Shown here one piece after another: positions 3,661 to 42,411 of a DNA stretch of 42,411 nt; position 1 is the stretch's first letter; each line of letters starts with the position of its first letter. The notes beneath the pieces were generated by a model. That model saw only the letters and a program-made list of their open reading frames with translations. It was not told the DNA's origin and did not search any database. The DNA is from an uncultured Blautia sp. GTDB taxonomy: Bacteria; Bacillota; Clostridia; Lachnospirales; Lachnospiraceae. The position numbers were made by a program, and so were the translations under genes. The stretch lies in NCBI GenBank assembly GCA_934364795.1, contig CAKRMK010000029.1, forward strand, positions 1-42,411, in the 5' to 3' direction.

Positions 3661-3720
3661 GAGCCTGCTTTGCAGAAAGTCTTTGAGGGCATGCTCTAGG
3701 ATGTCTGGTTTGCAGACATC
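3661..3720 (+). repeat. Intergenic hairpin element between ddl and murF
   Basis: The left part runs from gagcctgctttgcagaaag to atgctc, related to the other hairpin-type intergenic repeats in this window. It is joined to a perfect 8-bp hairpin (arms 3700-3707 and 3713-3720) followed by tgattttgat. It may attenuate ddl-to-murF read-through. Confidence 0.45.
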
Positions 3721-3747
3721 TGATTTTGATATATAGGACTTAAGGAT

Positions 3748-5115
3748 ATGAAAAATCTTACCTTAGAAAATCTTACCGAAGTTTGTAACGGAGTATATTT
3801 CGGACCTGCTGACAAACTGCACCAGGAGATTTCTTCGATTACAACTGACAGCAGAAAAGTAGAAGATGGAACTTTATTTGTTCCCATCGTAGGGGAGCGT
3901 GTAGATGCACACAAATTTATTCCACAGGTAATGGAGGCTGGAGCTCTCGCAACTTTGTCCGAGAGAGTTCTGGAGGACGCAGAATTTCCGTACATTAAAG
4001 TGGAATCCTCCCTGCAGGCAGTGAAAGATATTGCAGAATTTTACCTTCAGCAGCTTCAGATTCCTGTTGTAGGAATTACCGGAAGTGTTGGAAAAACAAG
4101 TACAAAAGAGGTAATTGCCTCTGTCCTAAAAGAAAAATACCGCACCTTAAAAACACAGGGAAATTTCAATAATGAGCTGGGACTTCCCCTTACTGTTTTC
4201 CGTCTGCGGGATGAGGATGAAATCGCAGTTCTGGAAATGGGAATCAGTGATTTCGGGGAAATGACCCGTCTTGCAAAGATTGCCAGACCGGATACCTGTG
4301 TGATCACAAATATCGGAACCTGTCATTTGGAAAATCTGGGAGACAGAGACGGTGTTTTGAAGGCAAAAACAGAAATTTTCAAATATTTGAAAAAAGATGG
4401 ACATATTGTATTAAATGGTGACGATGACAAGCTTTGTACAGTGAAAGAATATGAGGGCATCAAACCTGTATTTTTCGGAATGGAAGCTGACAAAGATATT
4501 TATGCGGATGAAATCGTAAGCCGGGGGCTGAAGGGCATGACATGCCGCATTCATATTGGTGGGGAGTCCTTTACAGTAGATATTCCAATGCCTGGACGCC
4601 ATATGGTATACAATGCCCTGGCGGCTACAGCAGTTGGCAGAATCTATGGACTTTCCCTGGAACAGATCCGTCATGGAATTGAGACGTTAGAAGCCATCAG
4701 CGGCAGATTTCATATGATCGAGACAGACAGATTCCTTATTGTAGATGACTGCTACAATGCAAATCCCATGTCCATGAAGGCATCCCTTGATGTCCTGAAG
4801 GATGGAGCAGGAAGAAGAGTTGCCATTTTGGGAGATATGGGTGAGCTTGGCGAAAATGAAGTAAGGCTTCATGAAGAAGTGGGAGAGCATGCAGCACAGT
4901 GTGGAATTGATGTGTGCATCTGTACAGGAGTACTTTCAGCCAATATTGCGAAAAAAGCAAAAATGAACCCGGACTTGACAGTTATAGAGGAACCTGACAG
5001 AGACAGCCTTCTGGCTCATCTTGATTCTTATGTAAAGACCGGGGATACAATTCTCGTAAAGGCATCTCACTTTATGCAGTTTGAAAAGGTAGTGGAAAAA
5101 CTGCAGGAAATGTGA
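3748..5115 (+). CDS. murF: UDP-N-acetylmuramoyl-tripeptide--D-alanyl-D-alanine ligase
   Basis: This 455-aa cytoplasmic Mur ligase adds the D-Ala-D-Ala dipeptide to UDP-MurNAc-tripeptide. The N-terminal UMP-binding domain (about 1-100) contains the MurF-type TTDSRKVEDGTLFVP segment. The central ATPase domain starts at the P-loop GITGSVGKTST (109-119), with the FNNELGLPLT segment just after it. The DDCYNANPMSM motif marks entry to the C-terminal Rossmann domain, which contains AILGDMGELG. The ATG is preceded only by a weak, close AAGGA, so translation initiation may be modest. It follows ddl, whose product it uses, with a hairpin element between them. Confidence 0.95.
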   Translation: MKNLTLENLTEVCNGVYFGPADKLHQEISSITTDSRKVEDGTLFVPIVGERVDAHKFIPQVMEAGALATLSERVLEDAEFPYIKVESSLQAVKDIAEFYLQQLQIPVVGITGSVGKTSTKEVIASVLKEKYRTLKTQGNFNNELGLPLTVFRLRDEDEIAVLEMGISDFGEMTRLAKIARPDTCVITNIGTCHLENLGDRDGVLKAKTEIFKYLKKDGHIVLNGDDDKLCTVKEYEGIKPVFFGMEADKDIYADEIVSRGLKGMTCRIHIGGESFTVDIPMPGRHMVYNALAATAVGRIYGLSLEQIRHGIETLEAISGRFHMIETDRFLIVDDCYNANPMSMKASLDVLKDGAGRRVAILGDMGELGENEVRLHEEVGEHAAQCGIDVCICTGVLSANIAKKAKMNPDLTVIEEPDRDSLLAHLDSYVKTGDTILVKASHFMQFEKVVEKLQEM

Positions 5116-5996: not shown

Positions 5997-6953
5997 ATGA
6001 AAATTGTGATTCTGGAAGCAGACAGTCTGGGACAGGATATGGTATTTACCCCATTCGAGGAACTGGGTGAGGTGGTCATTTACCATACTACGACTGCAGA
6101 AGAGATGGAAGCCAAAACTCTGGACGCAGATGTAATCGTAGCCAACAAGGTTCCTATTTGTGAGGAGACAATTGGAAAAGCCAGAAATCTGAAGCTGGTT
6201 TGCCTTACAGCCACAGGTTTTAATAACTTAGATGGAGAATATCTGAAAAAACGTGGTATTGCGGCTTATAATGTTGCAGGATATTCTACAAACGGTGTGG
6301 CACAGCATACTTTTGCCCTTCTTTTTTATATTTTGGAAAAATTAAATTATTACGACAATTACGTAAAATCAGGCGAATATGCAAGAGGCAAATGTTTTTC
6401 CCATTTTGCACAGAACTTTTTTGAGTTAGATGGAAAAACCTGGGGAATCATCGGACTGGGAGCTATTGGACGAAAAGTTGCAGAAATTGCAGAAGTATTT
6501 GGCTGCCATATTATCTGTTACTCTGCATCTGGCAGAAAATATGATACCAGCTATGAGCAGGTAGATTTTGATGAGCTTCTTTCACGTTCCGATATTTTGT
6601 CCGTTCATGCACCACTGAATCAGTATACAGAAAATCTGATGACACTGGAAGCATTTTGCAAAATGAAAAAATCTGCAATTTTCCTTAATCTGGCAAGGGG
6701 AGCTATTGTAAATGAGGCTGACCTTTATACAGCACTTACAGAAGATGCAATTGCAGGAGCTGGTCTTGATGTGCTTTGCAAAGAGCCTATGGATCCGGAA
6801 AATCCACTGCTTAAAATTAAAGACAGCAAGAAACTGATCATTACCCCTCATATTGCCTGGGCTGCGAAAGAAACCAGGTTCCGTGTGGTTGATGAGGTGA
6901 TCAAAAATATCCGCCGTTTCCAGGTGGGAGATGGAACCAACCGGGTATATTAA
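5997..6953 (+). CDS. D-2-hydroxyacid dehydrogenase, NAD-dependent
   Basis: The 318-aa protein reduces a 2-oxo acid to the D-2-hydroxy acid, or the reverse. The Rossmann fold carries GIIGLGAIGRKVAEIA, the catalytic Arg is in NLARGAIVNEADL, the Glu in CKEPMDPENP and the His in TPHIAWA, completing the Arg-Glu-His triad. An in-frame extension back to a GTG at 5904 is possible but starts four bases inside the upstream gene, lacks a family match and contains an implausible cysteine run. The ATG at 5997 has GAGGAG 6-7 bases before it and begins with the family-typical MKIVILEAD, so that start is chosen. It is most like the hydroxypyruvate/glycerate or lactate dehydrogenase groups; the substrate is not settled. 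Confidence 0.9.
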   Translation: MKIVILEADSLGQDMVFTPFEELGEVVIYHTTTAEEMEAKTLDADVIVANKVPICEETIGKARNLKLVCLTATGFNNLDGEYLKKRGIAAYNVAGYSTNGVAQHTFALLFYILEKLNYYDNYVKSGEYARGKCFSHFAQNFFELDGKTWGIIGLGAIGRKVAEIAEVFGCHIICYSASGRKYDTSYEQVDFDELLSRSDILSVHAPLNQYTENLMTLEAFCKMKKSAIFLNLARGAIVNEADLYTALTEDAIAGAGLDVLCKEPMDPENPLLKIKDSKKLIITPHIAWAAKETRFRVVDEVIKNIRRFQVGDGTNRVY

Positions 6954-13045: not shown

Positions 13046-14005
13046 ATGGATAAAATCGCAGTATTGATTCCCTGTTATAATGAGGGGAAAACAATCGAAA
13101 AAGTAGTAACAGATTTCAAAAAAGTACTGCCAGAAGCAGTGATTTATGTGTACGACAATAATTCCACAGACGGAACTGCCCAGATCGCAGAAAAAGCAGG
13201 TGCAGTTGTACGCCATGAATATTGCCAGGGAAAAGGAAACGTAATCAGAAGAATGTTTCAGGAAGTAGATGCAAAGTGCTATCTCATGGTAGACGGAGAT
13301 GACACTTATCCTGCAGAATCAGCAAGAGAGATGGCAGATAAAGTCCTGGAAAGAAAAGTAGATATGGTAGTGGGCGACCGTTTATCCTCCACATATTTTG
13401 AGGAAAACAAGCGTCCGTTTCATAATTTTGGAAACTCTATTGTAAGATGGGGAATCAATACCTTTTTTAAGAACGACATTAAAGATATTATGACAGGCTA
13501 CCGTGCATTCAGCTATCGCTTTGTAAAAACATTTCCAGTGTTGTCAAAGGGCTTTGAAATTGAGACTGAAATGAGTATTCATGCAATTGACAAAAATATG
13601 TTTGTGGAAAACGTGGTCATTGAGTACAGGGACCGCCCGGAGGGAAGTGAGTCCAAGCTGAATACATATTCTGATGGAATGAAGGTTATTGGAACAATCA
13701 TCCGTCTTTTCCAGACCTATCGGCCGCTGGCATTTTTTGGAACTGTAGCGGCAATTCTTATGCTTCTGGCTGTTGGATTTTTCATTCCTGTGGGAATTAC
13801 CTATGCAGATACCGGGCTGGTACCCAACTTCCCGACTCTGATCGTCTGTGGCTTTGTGGCACTGGCTTCTATCCAGTCCTTTTTTGCAGGGCTTATTTTA
13901 CAGACCATGTACCGCAAGAACCGTCAGGATTTTGAAATGCAGCTTCAGAACTGTTATGCAAATCAGCTGGCAGCAGAGCAAAAAGAGAATGAAAAATCTT
14001 GTTAA
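13046..14005 (+). CDS. Membrane-anchored family 2 glycosyltransferase
   Basis: The 319-aa protein has an N-terminal GT-A domain (about 1-225) resembling dolichol-phosphate mannosyltransferase. The visible motifs are IPCYNEGKTIE, the nucleotide/metal-binding VDGDDTYP, GKGNVIRRM, and the late ETEMSIHAIDK and YRDRPEGSESKL segments. Two membrane spans follow at about 232-255 and 270-293, then a charged tail. It probably transfers a sugar from a nucleotide donor to a polyprenyl phosphate on the inner membrane face. AGGAG lies 7-8 bases before the ATG. The next gene, a large membrane protein, starts 23 bp later and could use the lipid-linked sugar; that link is inferred. Confidence 0.9.
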   Translation: MDKIAVLIPCYNEGKTIEKVVTDFKKVLPEAVIYVYDNNSTDGTAQIAEKAGAVVRHEYCQGKGNVIRRMFQEVDAKCYLMVDGDDTYPAESAREMADKVLERKVDMVVGDRLSSTYFEENKRPFHNFGNSIVRWGINTFFKNDIKDIMTGYRAFSYRFVKTFPVLSKGFEIETEMSIHAIDKNMFVENVVIEYRDRPEGSESKLNTYSDGMKVIGTIIRLFQTYRPLAFFGTVAAILMLLAVGFFIPVGITYADTGLVPNFPTLIVCGFVALASIQSFFAGLILQTMYRKNRQDFEMQLQNCYANQLAAEQKENEKSC

Positions 14006-14028: not shown

Positions 14029-16479
14029 ATGACAGAAAATAAGGGTAAAAATGGAAAAATACTGCTGAAATATGTAATATGTGCAGTAGTTCTGGCTGTT
14101 CTGGCAGAGTTTATGATGATTCTGGACTATGAGGGCCTTATGGGCGCATACTGGAATGAAAATCAGCAGCTTACATTGTCACTTGAGGATGCAAGTCTTA
14201 CGGACTGTGAGCTCCAGGATGGAAAAATCATAGTTACCGGAGAGAATCCTCAGATGGTTTTTGAAGGAATTAATGAGTATGTAAGTAACGTACAAATTAG
14301 TTTACATAATCTTTCCTCCTCTGCACTGGATACCCGGATTTATTATTCCATAAAGGGAGAACGGTTTGCAAAGAAAAAAAGCGTACAGGTTTCTTATCCG
14401 GAAAATCAGAAATTTGTTTCTGCCGGTATAAACAGCAAAGTGACCTCTTTTAAAATCGCTATTGAAGATAATGAAGATGCTTCCTACAGTTTTGATGAGT
14501 TTTGTGTAAATCCCCATGTTGCCTCATACCTGAAACACAATTGGGCCAACATGTCAGGGCTTCGGATTTTACTGTACTTTGTAGGAATCCTTATTCTTTT
14601 GCTGGCAATGAAGGATTTTGGAAAATTCTGTGAGATTCTGTTCCGTTACCGCTGGGTGATTGGAGCTTGTGTGATTGCTTTTTGCACCATACTGAAGCTT
14701 CACGGATCTTCAATGGGAATTTTAAGCCAGTTATTAACAGGAACGGATACTTCCAAATTGTGGGGAACTTCCAGGAATATCAGAACGGATGAGTATGTTG
14801 TATTTACAGAGATGGCACTGTCCCAGGTAAAATCAGGCTTCCACTGGTTTTCCGATATCTGGGGATATTCTTCTTCAGATATGTTTATTGTATATGGTCA
14901 GCCGGTACTGAATCTGGCAACTATATTCCGCCCGTTTTCAATTGGATATATTTTGTTTGGGGCAGAGCGGGGACTGGCATTTTACTGGTCATCAAGACTT
15001 GTGATCTGTTTCCTGGTATCCCTTGAGTTTGGACGTATTTTTACAAAAGACAACAAAATGCTTTCTACAGTTTATGCATTTATGATCAGTCTGTCACCTG
15101 TTGTACAGTGGTGGTTTTCTATTAATGAACTGGTAGAAATGCTGATTTTTGGTCAGCTGGCACTTCTCATTCTTTATTACTATGTGCGGACAGATTCTCT
15201 GAAGAAAAAATGCATCATGGTTGCTGGGCTGGTTATCTGCGCCGGTGGCTATATCATGACTTTGTATCCGGCATGGATGATTCCGCTGTTCTTCGTATTT
15301 CTGGCATGTGCCATTGCCATGATCCTGGAGGACAGAAAGCTCATTAAGATAAAAAAACAGGATGTGATGGTCTGGGCTGTGGGAATCCTTGTGCTTGCAG
15401 TCAGTATGGTTTATATTTTAAGCATTTCCAAAGATACTATTATGGCGGAAATGAACACGGTATATCCAGGTGCCCGTACCTATGCCGGCCAGCCTGATGA
15501 TCTTGTGAAGCTTTTCAAAAGCTGGAGCTCCTGGCTGTGGTCCTTCGGGGAAACAGCAAATCCCTGTGAAGAAGCGGACTTTATCAGTCTGTTCCCTCTG
15601 GGTGTGATTCTTTCTCTGATTGCATTATTTAAAAATAAAAAGAAAGATGCCTGGCTGATTACGTTAAATATATTTAATGCTTTTCTGATCCTGTTTTTCC
15701 TGTTCAGAATGCCAGACATTATTATCAGGGCGTCCCTTCTTGGACATGCCTCCTACCGCCTGTTTAATGCCATTGGTTTTTTGAATATTATTTTGTTATT
15801 CCGAAGTCTCATAACAGTGGAAAAAACAGAAAAGTATATCAGAAAACTGATTCCGGTAGCAGTATTGACTGCCGTTATGTCATATTGGGGAAATACCCAG
15901 TCCATCACACCTGCACTGAAGGTGATTATTTTGCTTTTTGTGACAGGCCTTACAGTTGTGGTGCTTCGTTTTGAAAAAAAGGAATACCAGAGGGCATTTG
16001 CGGTTAGTATGATTGCTGTGAACGTGATTGGCGGTGGCCTTGTAAATCCTGTAAGCAGCGGTCTTGATAATATTTACCGGACCCCGGTTGTTCAGGAGAT
16101 TACCAGTCTGAATGAAGCAGAAGAAGGCATGTGGGTAGTTGCAGGAGATGCTTTTATGTATGAAAATCTTCCTACAATAGCCGGTGCAAAGACTCTGAAT
16201 ACAGTTGCCACTTATCCGGATGAACAGCTCTGGACAGATCTGGGGCTTGCTGATGAAGAGGAATACTGGAACCGGTATGCACATATCAGTATAGAAATCG
16301 GTAAGACAACGAAGGTAGGGCTGGGTGCGCCAGATGTGCTGAAACTTCAGGTAACAGTAGACAAGCTGAAAGAGCTTGGTGTGACTTATATTTTAAGTCT
16401 GGAGGATGACATGAAGGATACTACCGGACTTGAAAAGATCGGTGTGCGAAATAACTTTACAATTTATAAAATAGCGTGA
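14029..16479 (+). CDS. Large polytopic membrane protein, probable lipid-linked-sugar glycosyltransferase partner
   Basis: The 816-aa protein has one N-terminal span (about 9-32), an extracellular beta-rich stretch (about 33-165), a dozen or so further spans between about 175 and 680, and a soluble C-terminal extracellular domain (about 690-816). The arrangement recalls GT-C or YfhO-like proteins that modify surface polymers outside the membrane, but I cannot identify the family securely. The in-frame TTG at 13999 would overlap the upstream gene; ATG 14029 with AGGGAG six bases before it is the better start. The conserved stretch VYGQPVLNLATIFRPFSIG lies on an outward loop. It is co-transcribed with the upstream glycosyltransferase. 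Confidence 0.7.
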   Translation: MTENKGKNGKILLKYVICAVVLAVLAEFMMILDYEGLMGAYWNENQQLTLSLEDASLTDCELQDGKIIVTGENPQMVFEGINEYVSNVQISLHNLSSSALDTRIYYSIKGERFAKKKSVQVSYPENQKFVSAGINSKVTSFKIAIEDNEDASYSFDEFCVNPHVASYLKHNWANMSGLRILLYFVGILILLLAMKDFGKFCEILFRYRWVIGACVIAFCTILKLHGSSMGILSQLLTGTDTSKLWGTSRNIRTDEYVVFTEMALSQVKSGFHWFSDIWGYSSSDMFIVYGQPVLNLATIFRPFSIGYILFGAERGLAFYWSSRLVICFLVSLEFGRIFTKDNKMLSTVYAFMISLSPVVQWWFSINELVEMLIFGQLALLILYYYVRTDSLKKKCIMVAGLVICAGGYIMTLYPAWMIPLFFVFLACAIAMILEDRKLIKIKKQDVMVWAVGILVLAVSMVYILSISKDTIMAEMNTVYPGARTYAGQPDDLVKLFKSWSSWLWSFGETANPCEEADFISLFPLGVILSLIALFKNKKKDAWLITLNIFNAFLILFFLFRMPDIIIRASLLGHASYRLFNAIGFLNIILLFRSLITVEKTEKYIRKLIPVAVLTAVMSYWGNTQSITPALKVIILLFVTGLTVVVLRFEKKEYQRAFAVSMIAVNVIGGGLVNPVSSGLDNIYRTPVVQEITSLNEAEEGMWVVAGDAFMYENLPTIAGAKTLNTVATYPDEQLWTDLGLADEEEYWNRYAHISIEIGKTTKVGLGAPDVLKLQVTVDKLKELGVTYILSLEDDMKDTTGLEKIGVRNNFTIYKIA

Positions 16480-36740: not shown

Positions 36741-37511
36741 ATGAGATTTCGGCCTTGCATAGATATACATAACGGAAAAGTAAAACAAATCGTAGGGGGA
36801 AGTCTGAAAGACGCTGGAAATCAGGCACAGGAGAATTTTGTATCAGAGCAGGATGGTGCATTTTATGCAAATCTGTACAAAGAAAAAGGCTTAAAAGGCG
36901 GACACATTATCCTGCTGAACAGTGCAGATTCCCAGTACTTTGAAGCAACCAGAAAACAGGCATTTCTGTCATTGAAGACTTATCCTGGCGGGCTGCAGCT
37001 GGGTGGCGGCGTGAATCCTGATAATGGAGCTATGTATCTGGAAGCCGGTGCCAGCCATGTGATCGTTACCTCCTATGTTTTTCGTGATGGACATATTTCC
37101 TGGGAAAACCTTGAAAAAATGGTAAAAGCAGTGGGAAAAGAGCATCTGGTTCTGGATCTTAGCTGCCGGAAAAAAGGAGACTCTTACTATGTGGTCACAG
37201 ACCGCTGGCAAAAATTTACAGAAGAAAAGGTAACTCTGGAGCTGATGGAGAAGCTGGGCGACTGTTGTGATGAATTCCTGATCCATGCAGTAGATGTAGA
37301 GGGAAAAGCAAAAGGTGTGGAGGTTCCCCTGGCTGAACTTCTGGGACAGTATAAAGGACATCCGGTTACTTATGCAGGTGGAGTTGGAAGCCTGGCAGAT
37401 ATACAGATCCTGAAACAGGCAGCACATGGAAAAGTAGATGTGACAGTGGGAAGTGCCCTGGATCTGTTTGGTGGAACCATTCCCTTTGTACAGCTTACAG
37501 GAGAATTGTAA
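36741..37511 (+). CDS. hisA: HisA, eukaryotic-type ProFAR isomerase
   Basis: The 256-aa TIM-barrel enzyme isomerises the ProFAR intermediate in histidine synthesis. The N-terminal strand carries the catalytic-type Asp in RPCIDIHNGKVKQIVGGSL, and the second acid lies in HAVDVEGKAKGVE. Gly-rich phosphate loops are at LQLGGGVNPDN and TYAGGVGSLADI. The wording of these blocks follows the HIS6-like (eukaryotic) branch rather than the usual bacterial HisA. GGGAGGAG precedes the ATG. No other his gene is in the window, so it is separated from the rest of the pathway. Confidence 0.85.
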   Translation: MRFRPCIDIHNGKVKQIVGGSLKDAGNQAQENFVSEQDGAFYANLYKEKGLKGGHIILLNSADSQYFEATRKQAFLSLKTYPGGLQLGGGVNPDNGAMYLEAGASHVIVTSYVFRDGHISWENLEKMVKAVGKEHLVLDLSCRKKGDSYYVVTDRWQKFTEEKVTLELMEKLGDCCDEFLIHAVDVEGKAKGVEVPLAELLGQYKGHPVTYAGGVGSLADIQILKQAAHGKVDVTVGSALDLFGGTIPFVQLTGEL

Positions 37512-39211: not shown

Positions 39212-41788
39212 ATGAATATGTTTTCAAAAGTTTTCGGGACCCGAAGCCAGCGTGAGGTAAAGCGTATCATGCCTCTCGTAAACAAAATCGAGAGCCTGCG
39301 TCCTGAAATGCAGAAATTAACAGATGAAGAACTTCGCGGTAAAACAAGAGAATTCAAGAAACGTCTGGAAGAAGGCGCGACTTTGGATGATCTTTTACCA
39401 GAAGCATTTGCAACAGTCCGTGAGGGTGCCAAAAGAGCTCTTGGAATGGAGCCTTACCAGGTACAGCTTATTGGTGGAATTATTCTTCATCAGGGCCGTA
39501 TTGCAGAGATGAAGACTGGTGAAGGTAAGACCTTGGTTGCGACTTTGCCGTCTTATCTGAATGCCCTGGAAGGCAAGGGTGTTCACGTTGTTACAGTCAA
39601 TGACTATCTGGCGAAACGTGATGCAGAAGAAATGGGAAAAGTTCACAGATTTCTGGGACTTACCGTAGGTGTAGTTCTCAATGATATGAAGCCGGAAGAA
39701 CGCCGTGCTGCATACGACTGTGATATTACTTACGTTACCAATAACGAGCTTGGTTTCGATTATCTGCGAGACAACATGGTTATTTATAAGGAGCAGCTTG
39801 TACAGCGTGACCTTCACTACTGTATCATCGATGAGGTTGACTCTATTTTGATTGATGAGGCCCGTACTCCTCTGATCATTTCCGGTCAGAGCGGCAAGTC
39901 TACCAAGCTGTATGAGGTGTGTGATATCCTTGCGAAACAGCTGGAGCGTGGTGAAGCCAGCCATGAGATGACCAAGATGGCAGCTATCATGGGCGAGGAA
40001 GTTATTGAGACTGGTGATTTCGTTGTAAATGAGAAAGATAAGATTGTCAACCTTACCGAGCAGGGTGTGAAGAAGGTTGAGAAATTCTTTAATATTGAAA
40101 ACCTTGCAGATCCGGAGAATCTTGAGATCCAGCACAACATCATTCTTGCACTTCGTGCACACAATCTGATGCATAAAGATCAGGACTATGTTGTAAAAGA
40201 TGATGAGGTTATGATCGTTGATGAGTTTACCGGACGTATCATGCCAGGCCGCCGTTATTCAGACGGACTTCATCAGGCAATCGAGGCGAAAGAGCACGTT
40301 AAGGTAAAACGTGAGAGTAAGACTCTTGCAACCATCACATTCCAGAACTTCTTTAACAAATACGATAAAAAAGGCGGTATGACTGGTACTGCCCTTACCG
40401 AGGAAAAAGAGTTCCGTGATATTTACGCAATGGACGTTGTTGAGATTCCTACCAACAAACCGGTTCAGCGTAAGGATCTGGAAGATGCTGTATACATGAC
40501 CAAGAAAGAGAAATTTAATGCGGTTGTCCAGGCTGTTAAAGAAGCCTACGAGAAAAAGCAGCCGGTTCTGGTCGGTACTATCACCATCGAGACATCCGAG
40601 CTGATCAGCCGTATGCTGAAAAGAGAAGGAATTCCGCATAACGTACTGAATGCCAAGTTCCATGAGCTTGAGGCAGAGATCGTTAAGCAGGCAGGTCAGG
40701 CTGGTGCTGTTACAATTGCTACCAACATGGCAGGCCGTGGTACTGATATTAAGCTGGATGATGTGGCAAGAGCAGCCGGTGGTCTGAAGATCATTGGTAC
40801 AGAGCGCCATGAGTCCAGACGTATTGATAACCAGCTCCGTGGACGTTCCGGACGTCAGGGAGATCCGGGAGAATCCCGCTTCTACATTTCCCTTGAGGAT
40901 GATCTGATGCGTCTGTTTGGTTCTGAGCGTCTGATGAAGGTATTTACCTCTCTTGGCGTTGCAGAGAACGAGCAGATCGAGCACAAGATGCTTTCCAATG
41001 CCATTGAGAAAGCACAGGAGAAAATTGAGTTTAACAACTTTGGTATCCGTAAAAATCTTCTTGATTACGACCAGGTTAACAATGAGCAGCGTGAGATTAT
41101 TTACAAAGAGCGCCGCCAGGTTCTGGACGGAGAGAACATGCGTGATGCAATCTATGATATGATTCAGGATATTGTAGATAATACAGTTGATATGTGCTTC
41201 TCTGATGATGTGGATTCAGAAGACTGGGATCTGAACGAGTTTAATAATGTTCTCTGCCAGATCATTCCAATCCAGCCTCTTACTGAGGAAAAAGTAAAAG
41301 GCAAGAAGAAAAATGAAATGAAACAGCTCATTAAGGAAGAAGCTACCAAACTTTATGAGACTAAGGAATCTGAGTTCCCGGAACCAGAGCAGCTTCGTGA
41401 GCTTGAGCGTGTTATCCTTCTGAAGAGCATTGACAGCAAGTGGATGGATCATATTGATGACATGGAGATTCTCCGTCAGGGTATCGGTCTGACTGCTTAT
41501 GGCCAGAGAGATCCGGTTGTAGAGTATAAGATGGTTGCATTTGATATGTTCAATAATATGCTTACATCTATCAAAGAAGACACTGTAAGAATGCTGTACC
41601 ATGTGAAAGTTGAGCAGAAGATCGAGCGTGAGCAGGTTGCCAAGGTTACCGGAACTAACAAGGATGAGTCCAGTGTCCGTAAACCGGTTCAGAGAAAAGA
41701 GATTAAAGTTTATCCTAACGATCCATGCCCATGTGGAAGTGGTAAGAAGTATAAACAGTGCTGTGGAAGAAAAACAGCGAATGTATAA
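39212..41788 (+). CDS. secA: Preprotein translocase ATPase SecA
   Basis: The 858-aa motor drives proteins through SecYEG. Walker A is MKTGEGKT (Lys106), the DEAD-like box is [11 protein letters not shown], and the preprotein-crosslinking region and NBD2 ([27 protein letters not shown]) follow. The C terminus keeps the zinc motif [13 protein letters not shown] that binds SecB or phospholipid. Length is normal for a Clostridia SecA. ACAGGAG lies 11 bases before ATG 39212; an out-of-frame ATG at 39205 lies closer to that site and encodes only a short peptide. A second in-frame ATG at 39218 is also possible. Confidence 0.97.
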
Positions 41789-41815
41789 AAAGTATAAAGA
41801 ATATGTGCATTATGA

Positions 41816-41848
41816 AAATCCCAGGCGTTTAGGCGGCTGGGATTTTTT
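41816..41848 (+). terminator. Intrinsic terminator of secA
   Basis: aaatcccag (41816-41824) with ctgggattt (41837-41845), continuing into a six-T run. Confidence 0.88.
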
Positions 41849-41921
41849 GCGTATGTTAGAGGGAGAACGGTTTTAATGGGGAAATTGCTATTTAATACAG
41901 TAAGACTTTTCAAGACGGACG

Positions 41922-42097
41922 CATTAGAACAAGTAGTATTCCACGCAGGTCGGCGCAACGTTCCGGCAAGCTAATGACTAACTGCGACTAGGACGCTCGG
42001 GAGAGCCCTCTCGCCCAAGTCTTAGTAAGTCATGGATCTCGCCTACACTAAGAACGCGCCTGAAATGACCTGCTAAGGAATACTACTTGTCCTAATG
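41922..42097 (+). ncRNA. Structured non-coding RNA of unassigned class
   Basis: The region is GC-rich against AT-rich flanks and has no gene. An outer helix pairs 41922-41942 with 42077-42097 (20 of 21 positions). Inside it lie 41945-41951 with 42067-42073 (7 bp), then ggcgc (41952-41956) with gcgcc (42056-42060) and gttc (41960-41963) with gaac (42052-42055). Further in are atgact (41974-41979) with agtcat (42028-42033), actagg (41987-41992) with cttagt (42021-42026), and a terminal hairpin at about 41999-42016. A diverged second copy lies on the minus strand at the window end. No convincing promoter was found. The shape and the hpf/secA setting recall the raiA motif RNA; the gut Clostridiales-1 motif is another candidate. 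I cannot decide between these or a new class. Confidence 0.8.
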
Positions 42098-42360
42098 CTG
42101 TGTGTTGGCAAAAACTGCTTGACTTTACGCAAGACAGTGGTGATTAATGTAACGTATGAGATTGCGGACAAAAAGAACTTATTTTTGTGCATTTTTCTGT
42201 ATTTGCTCATTTATAAGTTATTATTTATGCATTTTATAATTTTCTTAGTTATTGCAATGTTTAATCCATTTAATCTTATAACTGTAGTTTAGTCATACGA
42301 TACATCCAACACCCACCGTCTACAATTTCATGTGTAGCACTGTCAGTCCCCAGCGGTTTT

Positions 42361-42411
42361 GCAAGGTATATTCCTTAGCAGACCATTTCAGGAGCGCTTT
42401 TAATGTAGCAA
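42361..42411 (-). ncRNA. 3' part of a second copy of the same structured RNA (cut by window edge)
   Basis: Read on the minus strand, this stretch matches the 3' half of the plus-strand RNA: tacattaaaagcgctcctga aligns with tacactaagaacgcgcctga at most positions. The 13-mer ctgctaaggaata (here + 42369-42381) is identical in both. The two bases before it change from AC to GT, inside a helix arm of copy 1. The 5' part lies beyond the window. The spacer 42110-42360 is AT-rich with no credible gene. Confidence 0.75.

Follow-up and report, generated by a model that had tools for sequence, protein, structure and literature searches.

The structured element behind secA in the window, that is, the whole 42,411-nucleotide stretch of DNA analysed here, is a member of a dispersed repeat family in Lachnospiraceae bacteria. 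The best explanation, to which we assign a rough probability of 0.6, is that the element is a MITE-like, non-autonomous palindromic DNA repeat, whose arms stay paired through a process acting on DNA, probably correction templated by the hairpin itself. An earlier note on this DNA had described two convergent structured copies after secA and had guessed at 'a mobile history'; the fold of copy 1 and an inverted repeat at the window edge confirm the former, and the dispersed repeat family bears out the latter.

Copy 1 lies downstream of the gene that, from its sequence, we take to be secA (39212–41788, plus strand). A hairpin followed by a T run is positioned 3′ of this gene (41815–41846, plus strand; inverted-repeat pair I6) and is probably secA's own terminator, placing copy 1 behind that hairpin. 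From the outside inward, copy 1 is composed of a terminal or outer stem, the motif GGAC, a private stem (P1), a core (P2–P6) with the bulge TGAAAT, the return arm of P1, and TG followed by a weaker TTGG, all on the plus strand. Specifically, a terminal-repeat-like end, GCTATTTAAT (41887–41896), begins like the terminal inverted repeats that bound the 261–262-bp units in a related genome, G001, and lies at about the same distance from GGACGC as in those units; this end, the outer stem and GGAC are parts of the copy 1 unit. The conserved 5′ base motif GGAC (41917–41920) borders the private stem, and its G, G, A and C are present in 75, 77, 78 and 81 of 96 copies, respectively. The left arm of P1 (41921–41942) and its right arm, located by an inverted-repeat search (42077–42098), are 22 nt long and 95% complementary.

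Inside P1, the P2 strands are GCAGGTC (41945–41951; from fold, alignment and covariation) and GACCTGC (42067–42073; from sequence and covariation), and the P3 strands are GGCGC (41952–41956) and GCGCC (42056–42060), both from fold and covariation. The conserved core P4–P6 spans 41965–42043, with P4 formed by 41965–41970 and 42038–42043 and the apical hairpin P5–P6 inside, while the six-base bulge TGAAAT occupies 42061–42066, as indicated by the fold and by comparison with relatives. The conserved 3′ base motif TG....TTGGC (42099–42109) starts with T in 80 of 96 copies and has G as its second base in 79; its TTGG is weaker. The predicted fold of copy 1 has a minimum free energy of −76.8 kcal/mol (z = −8.4), and none of 200 shuffled sequences is equally stable. 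The structure therefore stands as the earlier note described it, except that it starts at 41921 rather than 41922, its closing stem is 22 nt long, and the unit is larger than described.

Copy 2 is represented in the window by its 3′ half alone (42353–42411, minus strand), because the window ends inside it. Comparison with copy 1 and with relatives assigns 42353–42374 (minus strand) to the right arm of its private stem, whose partner would lie beyond the window, and 42378–42411 (minus strand), cut by the window end, contains the P2 strand GGTCTGC, the bulge TGAAAT, the P3 strand and the start of the core. The helix arm GACCTGC at 42067–42073 thus reads GGTCTGC in copy 2, as had been stated; its expected left partner, GCAGACC, would fall past the end of the window. 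Copy 2 forms a 47-nt inverted repeat with the 3′ strand of copy 1 (42043–42089 and 42362–42408, 81%), and blastn aligns the two over 40 nt at 85% (E = 3e-7). The covariance model R1, described below, scores 19.3 bits over 42376–42411 of copy 2 (E = 0.43 in a 1-Mb search).

The compact fold, together with secA and a gene close by that we take to be hpf-like, could indicate a known housekeeping RNA in duplicate, such as the raiA motif, 6S, SRP or Clostridiales-1 RNA. Searching the whole window against Rfam 15 at the gathering score gave no match, and a relaxed search of 41780–42411 returned only three chance-level matches, the best with E = 1.7. Likewise, in a relaxed search of six loci with relatives, the element had no match to raiA, 6S or Clostridiales-1; the search gave one separate Clostridiales-1 RNA and one chance-level match. 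The raiA, 6S and Clostridiales-1 identities that had been entertained for the element thus found no support at gathering or relaxed thresholds. With tens of dispersed copies per genome, and most sampled relatives lacking the element, we rejected raiA, 6S, SRP and Clostridiales-1 RNA and regard the probability of any such identity as negligible. The separate Clostridiales-1 RNA (RF01699, 88.8 bits) lies at L083:1896–2062 in G001, about 1.4 kb from a repeat copy, and is a different RNA. In another genome, G030, an SRP RNA gene adjoins a repeat copy on contig C11 (17135–17396 and 17491–17624).

Relatives were collected with the window protein at 36741–37508, presumably HisA-type, as the query, which yielded 58 loci, mostly titled Lachnospiraceae or its genera. 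The nearest relative found is locus L001 of G001, whose HisA-type protein is 87% identical. A search with copy 1 yields 31 matches in G001 at E ≤ 1, and 30 of these reach E ≤ 7e-9; many are at contig ends and some are partial. In G001 the secA region matches the final 188 bases of the window's secA at 87% identity, and no copy follows secA there. On a further Lachnospiraceae contig, L037, a copy at 13564–13740 lies directly 3′ of secA in the orientation opposite to that in the window, and three further R1 matches lie within 13 kb (3670–3801, 6294–6428 and 16301–16432).

R1 is a covariance model of the inner part of the element (133 positions, 39 pairs), built from 13 hand-chosen copies and leaving P1 outside. 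In the family scan R1 matched 11 of 150 Lachnospiraceae genomes, G001 included, and in the class scan 2 of 291 genomes, namely G001 and one with a weak match; because filtering was strict in the two scans, which scored 22 and 11 candidates per genome, respectively, these counts are minimum values. In a genus represented by five genomes, R1 has 41 matches in G106, 49 in G154, 0 in G155, 26 in G156 and 55 in G157; G030 has 21, and the six richest genomes counted have 21–55 matches each. Convergent pairs a few hundred bases apart are present in G001, G030, G106, G154, G156 and G157, and the pair in the window is therefore a standing arrangement. Because such tail-to-tail arrangements are seen repeatedly in a family that has tens of copies, the dosage of a housekeeping RNA, which had been suggested for the duplication, does not explain them. 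An exact pattern over the conserved strand found no match in the genome collection, even though relatives are present there, because the conserved-strand motif varies. The repeat was not found in the phage, plasmid and viral collections, part of which were searched by similarity and part by exact patterns only. A literature search that reached little of the subscription literature found the family nowhere described.

The ends of the unit are best defined in G001, where four complete single units of 261–262 bp are bounded by GCTATTTAATGTGCTG and its inverse. These units are 87–96% identical to each other and have different flanks, which are T-rich or A-rich and carry no consistent direct (target-site) duplication. 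Looser end pairs, with up to four mismatches in each end, occur 297, 304 and 805 bp apart in the same genome. Judged by generally known properties, the family resembles MITEs in being short, dispersed and intergenic, with a lack of coding sequence judged from length, in having terminal inverted repeats around complete copies (the four G001 units), and in occurring as near-identical copies in different flanks. It differs from MITEs in that no partner transposon was found and in that the outermost stem varies between genomes; a target-site duplication was likewise not identified in the T-rich or A-rich flanks of the four units. No transposase was identified for the family, and no autonomous partner with the same ends was found among 35 end-sequence matches in the fragmented G001 assembly, in which no end pair lies 1–3 kb apart. 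Two bare terminal-repeat pairs in G001, C112:3848–3892 and C189:4022–4079, are 45 and 58 bp long, too short for the core to fit, and are probably internally deleted units.

A complete G001 unit reads, in order, terminal inverted repeat, GGAC, private stem (usually 22–26 bp), conserved core containing mismatches and the six-base bulge, return arm, TG..TTGG and terminal repeat. The window has two units, tail to tail, behind the probable secA terminator.

The private stem was characterised in 96 copies with at least 12 paired positions, drawn from an input of copy 1 and copies from relatives, after a simple redundancy filter that kept a few related arms, such as L205/L213 and L207/L235. Stricter filtering left 88 copies, at the cost of losing some unrelated arms as well. 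Across the 96 copies, P1 has a modal length of 24 bp and ranges from 12 to 123 bp. Opposing arm bases match at 2138 of the 2233 pairs scored within the inner 24. Arms of fewer than 12 pairs were present in four of the 72 copies of an initial measurement. Under the stricter filter, 56 of 88 stems measure 22–26 bp and 62 are bordered by GAC on the left and TG on the right. The same borders are retained in 8 of 16 stems of at least 34 bp, and also in the 123-bp stem of L157, which the stricter filter drops for a shared 11-mer. In L157, L134 and L201, GACGAA- or GACGG-like motifs are repeated in the stem or flank, as if base segments had been duplicated.

The arms themselves differ in sequence from site to site, with the exception of orthologues and recent duplicates, above all in G001. 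The mean duplex energy of an arm is −48 kcal/mol with its own partner and −15 kcal/mol with a wrong partner (72 copies). When 17 G030 arms were searched against that genome, 33 of the 34 matches fell at the elements from which the arms came and one lay elsewhere (E = 0.2), although the search could miss short second sites. Phages and plasmids contained no match to any of nine long arms. For an origin of the arms outside the elements, the own-genome, phage and plasmid searches gave weak or negative results.

Covariation is the standard proof of a functional RNA, and the earlier note had read the locus as a functional RNA under structural selection. The covariation part of that reading holds strongly, because analysis of homologues shows two-sided changes in 20 of 39 core pairs, and four of five covariation measures were reached by none of 500 shuffles; the fifth, for further pair types, was reached by 161 of 500. 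The RNA part is not supported in that form, because the excess of G-U seen in SRP RNA is missing on the modelled strand. RNA helices tolerate G-U pairs, whereas A-C pairs break them. In the P1 arms, defined by a scoring that treats G-T and A-C alike, G-T accounts for 23 and A-C for 37 of 2233 pairs (96 copies; p = 0.09 for the A-C excess), and under the stricter filter for 19 and 35 of 2041 pairs (88 copies; p = 0.04); with redundant copies included, there are 47 A-C and 23 G-T. In the core, counted after three antisense rows had been dropped from alignment A5, the ratio of G-T to A-C is 56:55 without three poorly paired columns and 59:104 with them, 48 core A-C coming from one column. By comparison, a control with SRP RNA of the same bacterial family, a single RNA family sampled at the best-scoring 30 of 37 genomes with a match, gave a ratio of 474:16 (30 loci). 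Pairing in the repeat is therefore kept almost purely Watson–Crick, a pattern that a DNA hairpin, a cruciform or arm-to-arm copying would produce. The private stem thus behaves more like a DNA palindrome than like an RNA helix, and covariation that resembles a functional RNA therefore needs another explanation.

The same counts bear on the possibility that the family is a new class of structured RNA, read from either strand as 3′ untranslated elements, terminators or small RNAs and possibly bound by protein at its internal loops. Such a class would account for the strong two-sided covariation and for the conservation of the loops and the bulge. Read on the opposite strand, the A-C excess in the arms becomes a slight excess of G-U (about 1.8:1), and that strand of copy 1 folds better as RNA (−93 kcal/mol, against −76.8 kcal/mol for the modelled strand); as DNA it folds at −47.3 kcal/mol (z = −9.2). 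Both strands may have to fold as RNA, or the opposite strand may be an RNA in which wobble is merely rare. The case for the opposite strand as the RNA is the mild A-C excess, and that reading may hold but is not favoured.

Genomic position speaks on both sides of the same question. Frames of at least 90 codons, found mechanically, flank 82 of 88 copies on both sides; counting members of pairs, which are non-independent, 33 copies are located between convergent frames, 21 are in tandem with and 20 in tandem against the neighbouring genes, and 8 are located between divergent frames. The prevalence of convergent over divergent contexts, and a 5′ edge that is often near a stop codon, would suit an RNA at gene ends. 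Against an RNA class stand the similar frequencies of G-T and A-C, the absence of strand bias in tandem contexts, the terminator-like hairpin that already precedes the element in the window, and the range of 0 to 55 matches among genomes of one genus. Taken together, these observations make a new RNA class unlikely in our estimate. The tandem counts contradict an initial impression of uniform co-orientation with the preceding gene.

Change at the same sites was followed by seeking 35 copies of G106 in its sister genome G154, where 30 could be anchored and five (L144, L149, L150, L153 and L210) could not. The stem comparison left out L200 and L145 without detailed alignment, L141, skipped for its short arm, and L203, L205 (copy 1), L206, L198, L146, L152 and L209, which are damaged, absent or unalignable in G154. 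Among 498 stem pairs at the 20 sites compared, 15 changes are two-sided and Watson–Crick and one is two-sided of another kind, while 24 are one-sided (9 G-T, 8 A-C and 7 other) and thus outnumber them. The two-sided changes are confined to 4 of the 20 stems, and exchange between paralogues could therefore mimic template switching.

At L134, L135 and L136, the arms are nearly alike in G106 and G154 while the apical P5–P6 belongs to a different type; apical parts differ at L137 (copy 1) too. These differences suggest exchange between copies. Of the seven G154 sites classed as damaged or absent, L198, L146, L152 and L209 have deletions inside the unit, L206 has replaced sequence, L203 aligned over only 8 bases, and L205 (copy 1) was passed over; at L138 the intergenic stretch is unrelated between the two genomes. 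The first copy of the L142 pair is missing from G154 with GGAC remaining, which could reflect a deletion at GGG or, alternatively, an unoccupied site whose target is GGAC. Comparison of G106 with G154 revealed no clean empty site; most of the differences inspected are deletions or replaced sequence.

The preferred reading, a palindromic DNA repeat, would combine these properties as follows. The units would have been spread by an enzyme acting in trans. Mismatches between the arms would be repaired by template switching, in which a DNA hairpin lets one arm serve as the template for its partner, and the arms would thereby drift in sequence yet stay paired, while apical parts may be exchanged between copies by conversion. 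Conservation of the core, read from the alignments, implies some function and counts against this reading, under which the core may be the recognition target of the mobilising enzyme or of another DNA-binding protein. That copies are mostly found at a distance from promoters may reflect the lesser harm done by insertions at such places. A more specific form of this reading, in which a DNA hairpin gives the element its identity and the core sits on a stem of near-fixed length whose site-private sequence is continually rewritten arm to arm, giving covariation without selection on RNA, is tentative and stands well short of even odds.

If that specific form is true, the repeat family offers a ready-made system for studying template switching at palindromes and cautions against inferring RNAs from covariation. 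If confirmed, counts of G-U versus A-C mismatches would provide a cheap filter in RNA discovery, and in the carrier genomes, each of which has tens of palindromes, the correction, exchange and deletion of bacterial DNA palindromes could be measured directly. In the available sections of PMC8794818, template switching is described as able to give two-sided stem changes, with hairpins of this origin in RNA genes and frequent G-U intermediates. The repeat would share with those hairpins two-sided stem changes made by copying one arm from the other, and differs from them in that G-T is not favoured on the modelled strand.

Among known extragenic repeats, the family invites comparison with REP/RAYT-type repeats, spread by a Y1 (IS200-like) transposase. 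As reported for REPs and BIMEs in the available sections of PMC3733652, the repeats here are many-copy extragenic palindromes that frequently occur as inverted pairs and lie mostly downstream of genes. REPs there have stems of 5–13 bp, total lengths of 20–40 bp, and GTAG- and CGTC-tagged families, of which the CGTC families have no known transposase, a further likeness. The unit here is several times the size of a REP, with a private stem usually of 22–26 bp around some 130 bases of conserved core, and the known tags are matched in part, though in a different order. By our own comparison, the base motifs here are GGAC and TG..TTGG, in another order, and the stem base GGACG/CTGG contains GACG, the complement of CGTC, in the order opposite to that of CGTC repeats. 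The words Firmicutes and Clostridi- do not appear in the main text of PMC3733652.

Genes for Y1_Tnp (PF01797) are present in 6 of 9 carriers (not in G156, G061 or G119) and in 6 of 11 genomes without R1 matches, and the chromosomal Y1 gene of G106 lies 58 kb from the nearest of 38 placed copies and is not adjacent to any. An association with Y1 is thus unsupported, and we consider spread of the REP/RAYT type very improbable. The bcr1 and other Firmicutes stem-loop repeats of PMC2267715 are likewise dispersed and intergenic with conserved secondary structure; compared by description, the available portion of that source makes no mention of private arms in each copy with fixed bordering motifs.

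The variable perfect stems, the conserved unpaired positions and the location near gene ends also resemble integron attC, a recombination site folded from one DNA strand. The copies here are dispersed round the chromosome, and no cassette arrays were noticed. The chromosome record of G106 encodes DnaA-like peptides at its start and has a GC skew that switches between 1.64 and 1.80 Mb. Of the 41 matches in G106, 38 were placed, among the matches listed, and 23 of these are co-oriented with the leading strand (7 of 19 in the first half and 16 of 19 in the second), a ratio of 23:15 that shows no clear replication-strand bias and gives no support to a strand-specific mechanism acting on single-stranded DNA. 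We regard an attC-like site as very improbable. The minus strand of the same record, G106:C1, holds 28 of the 38 placed copies regardless of replichore.
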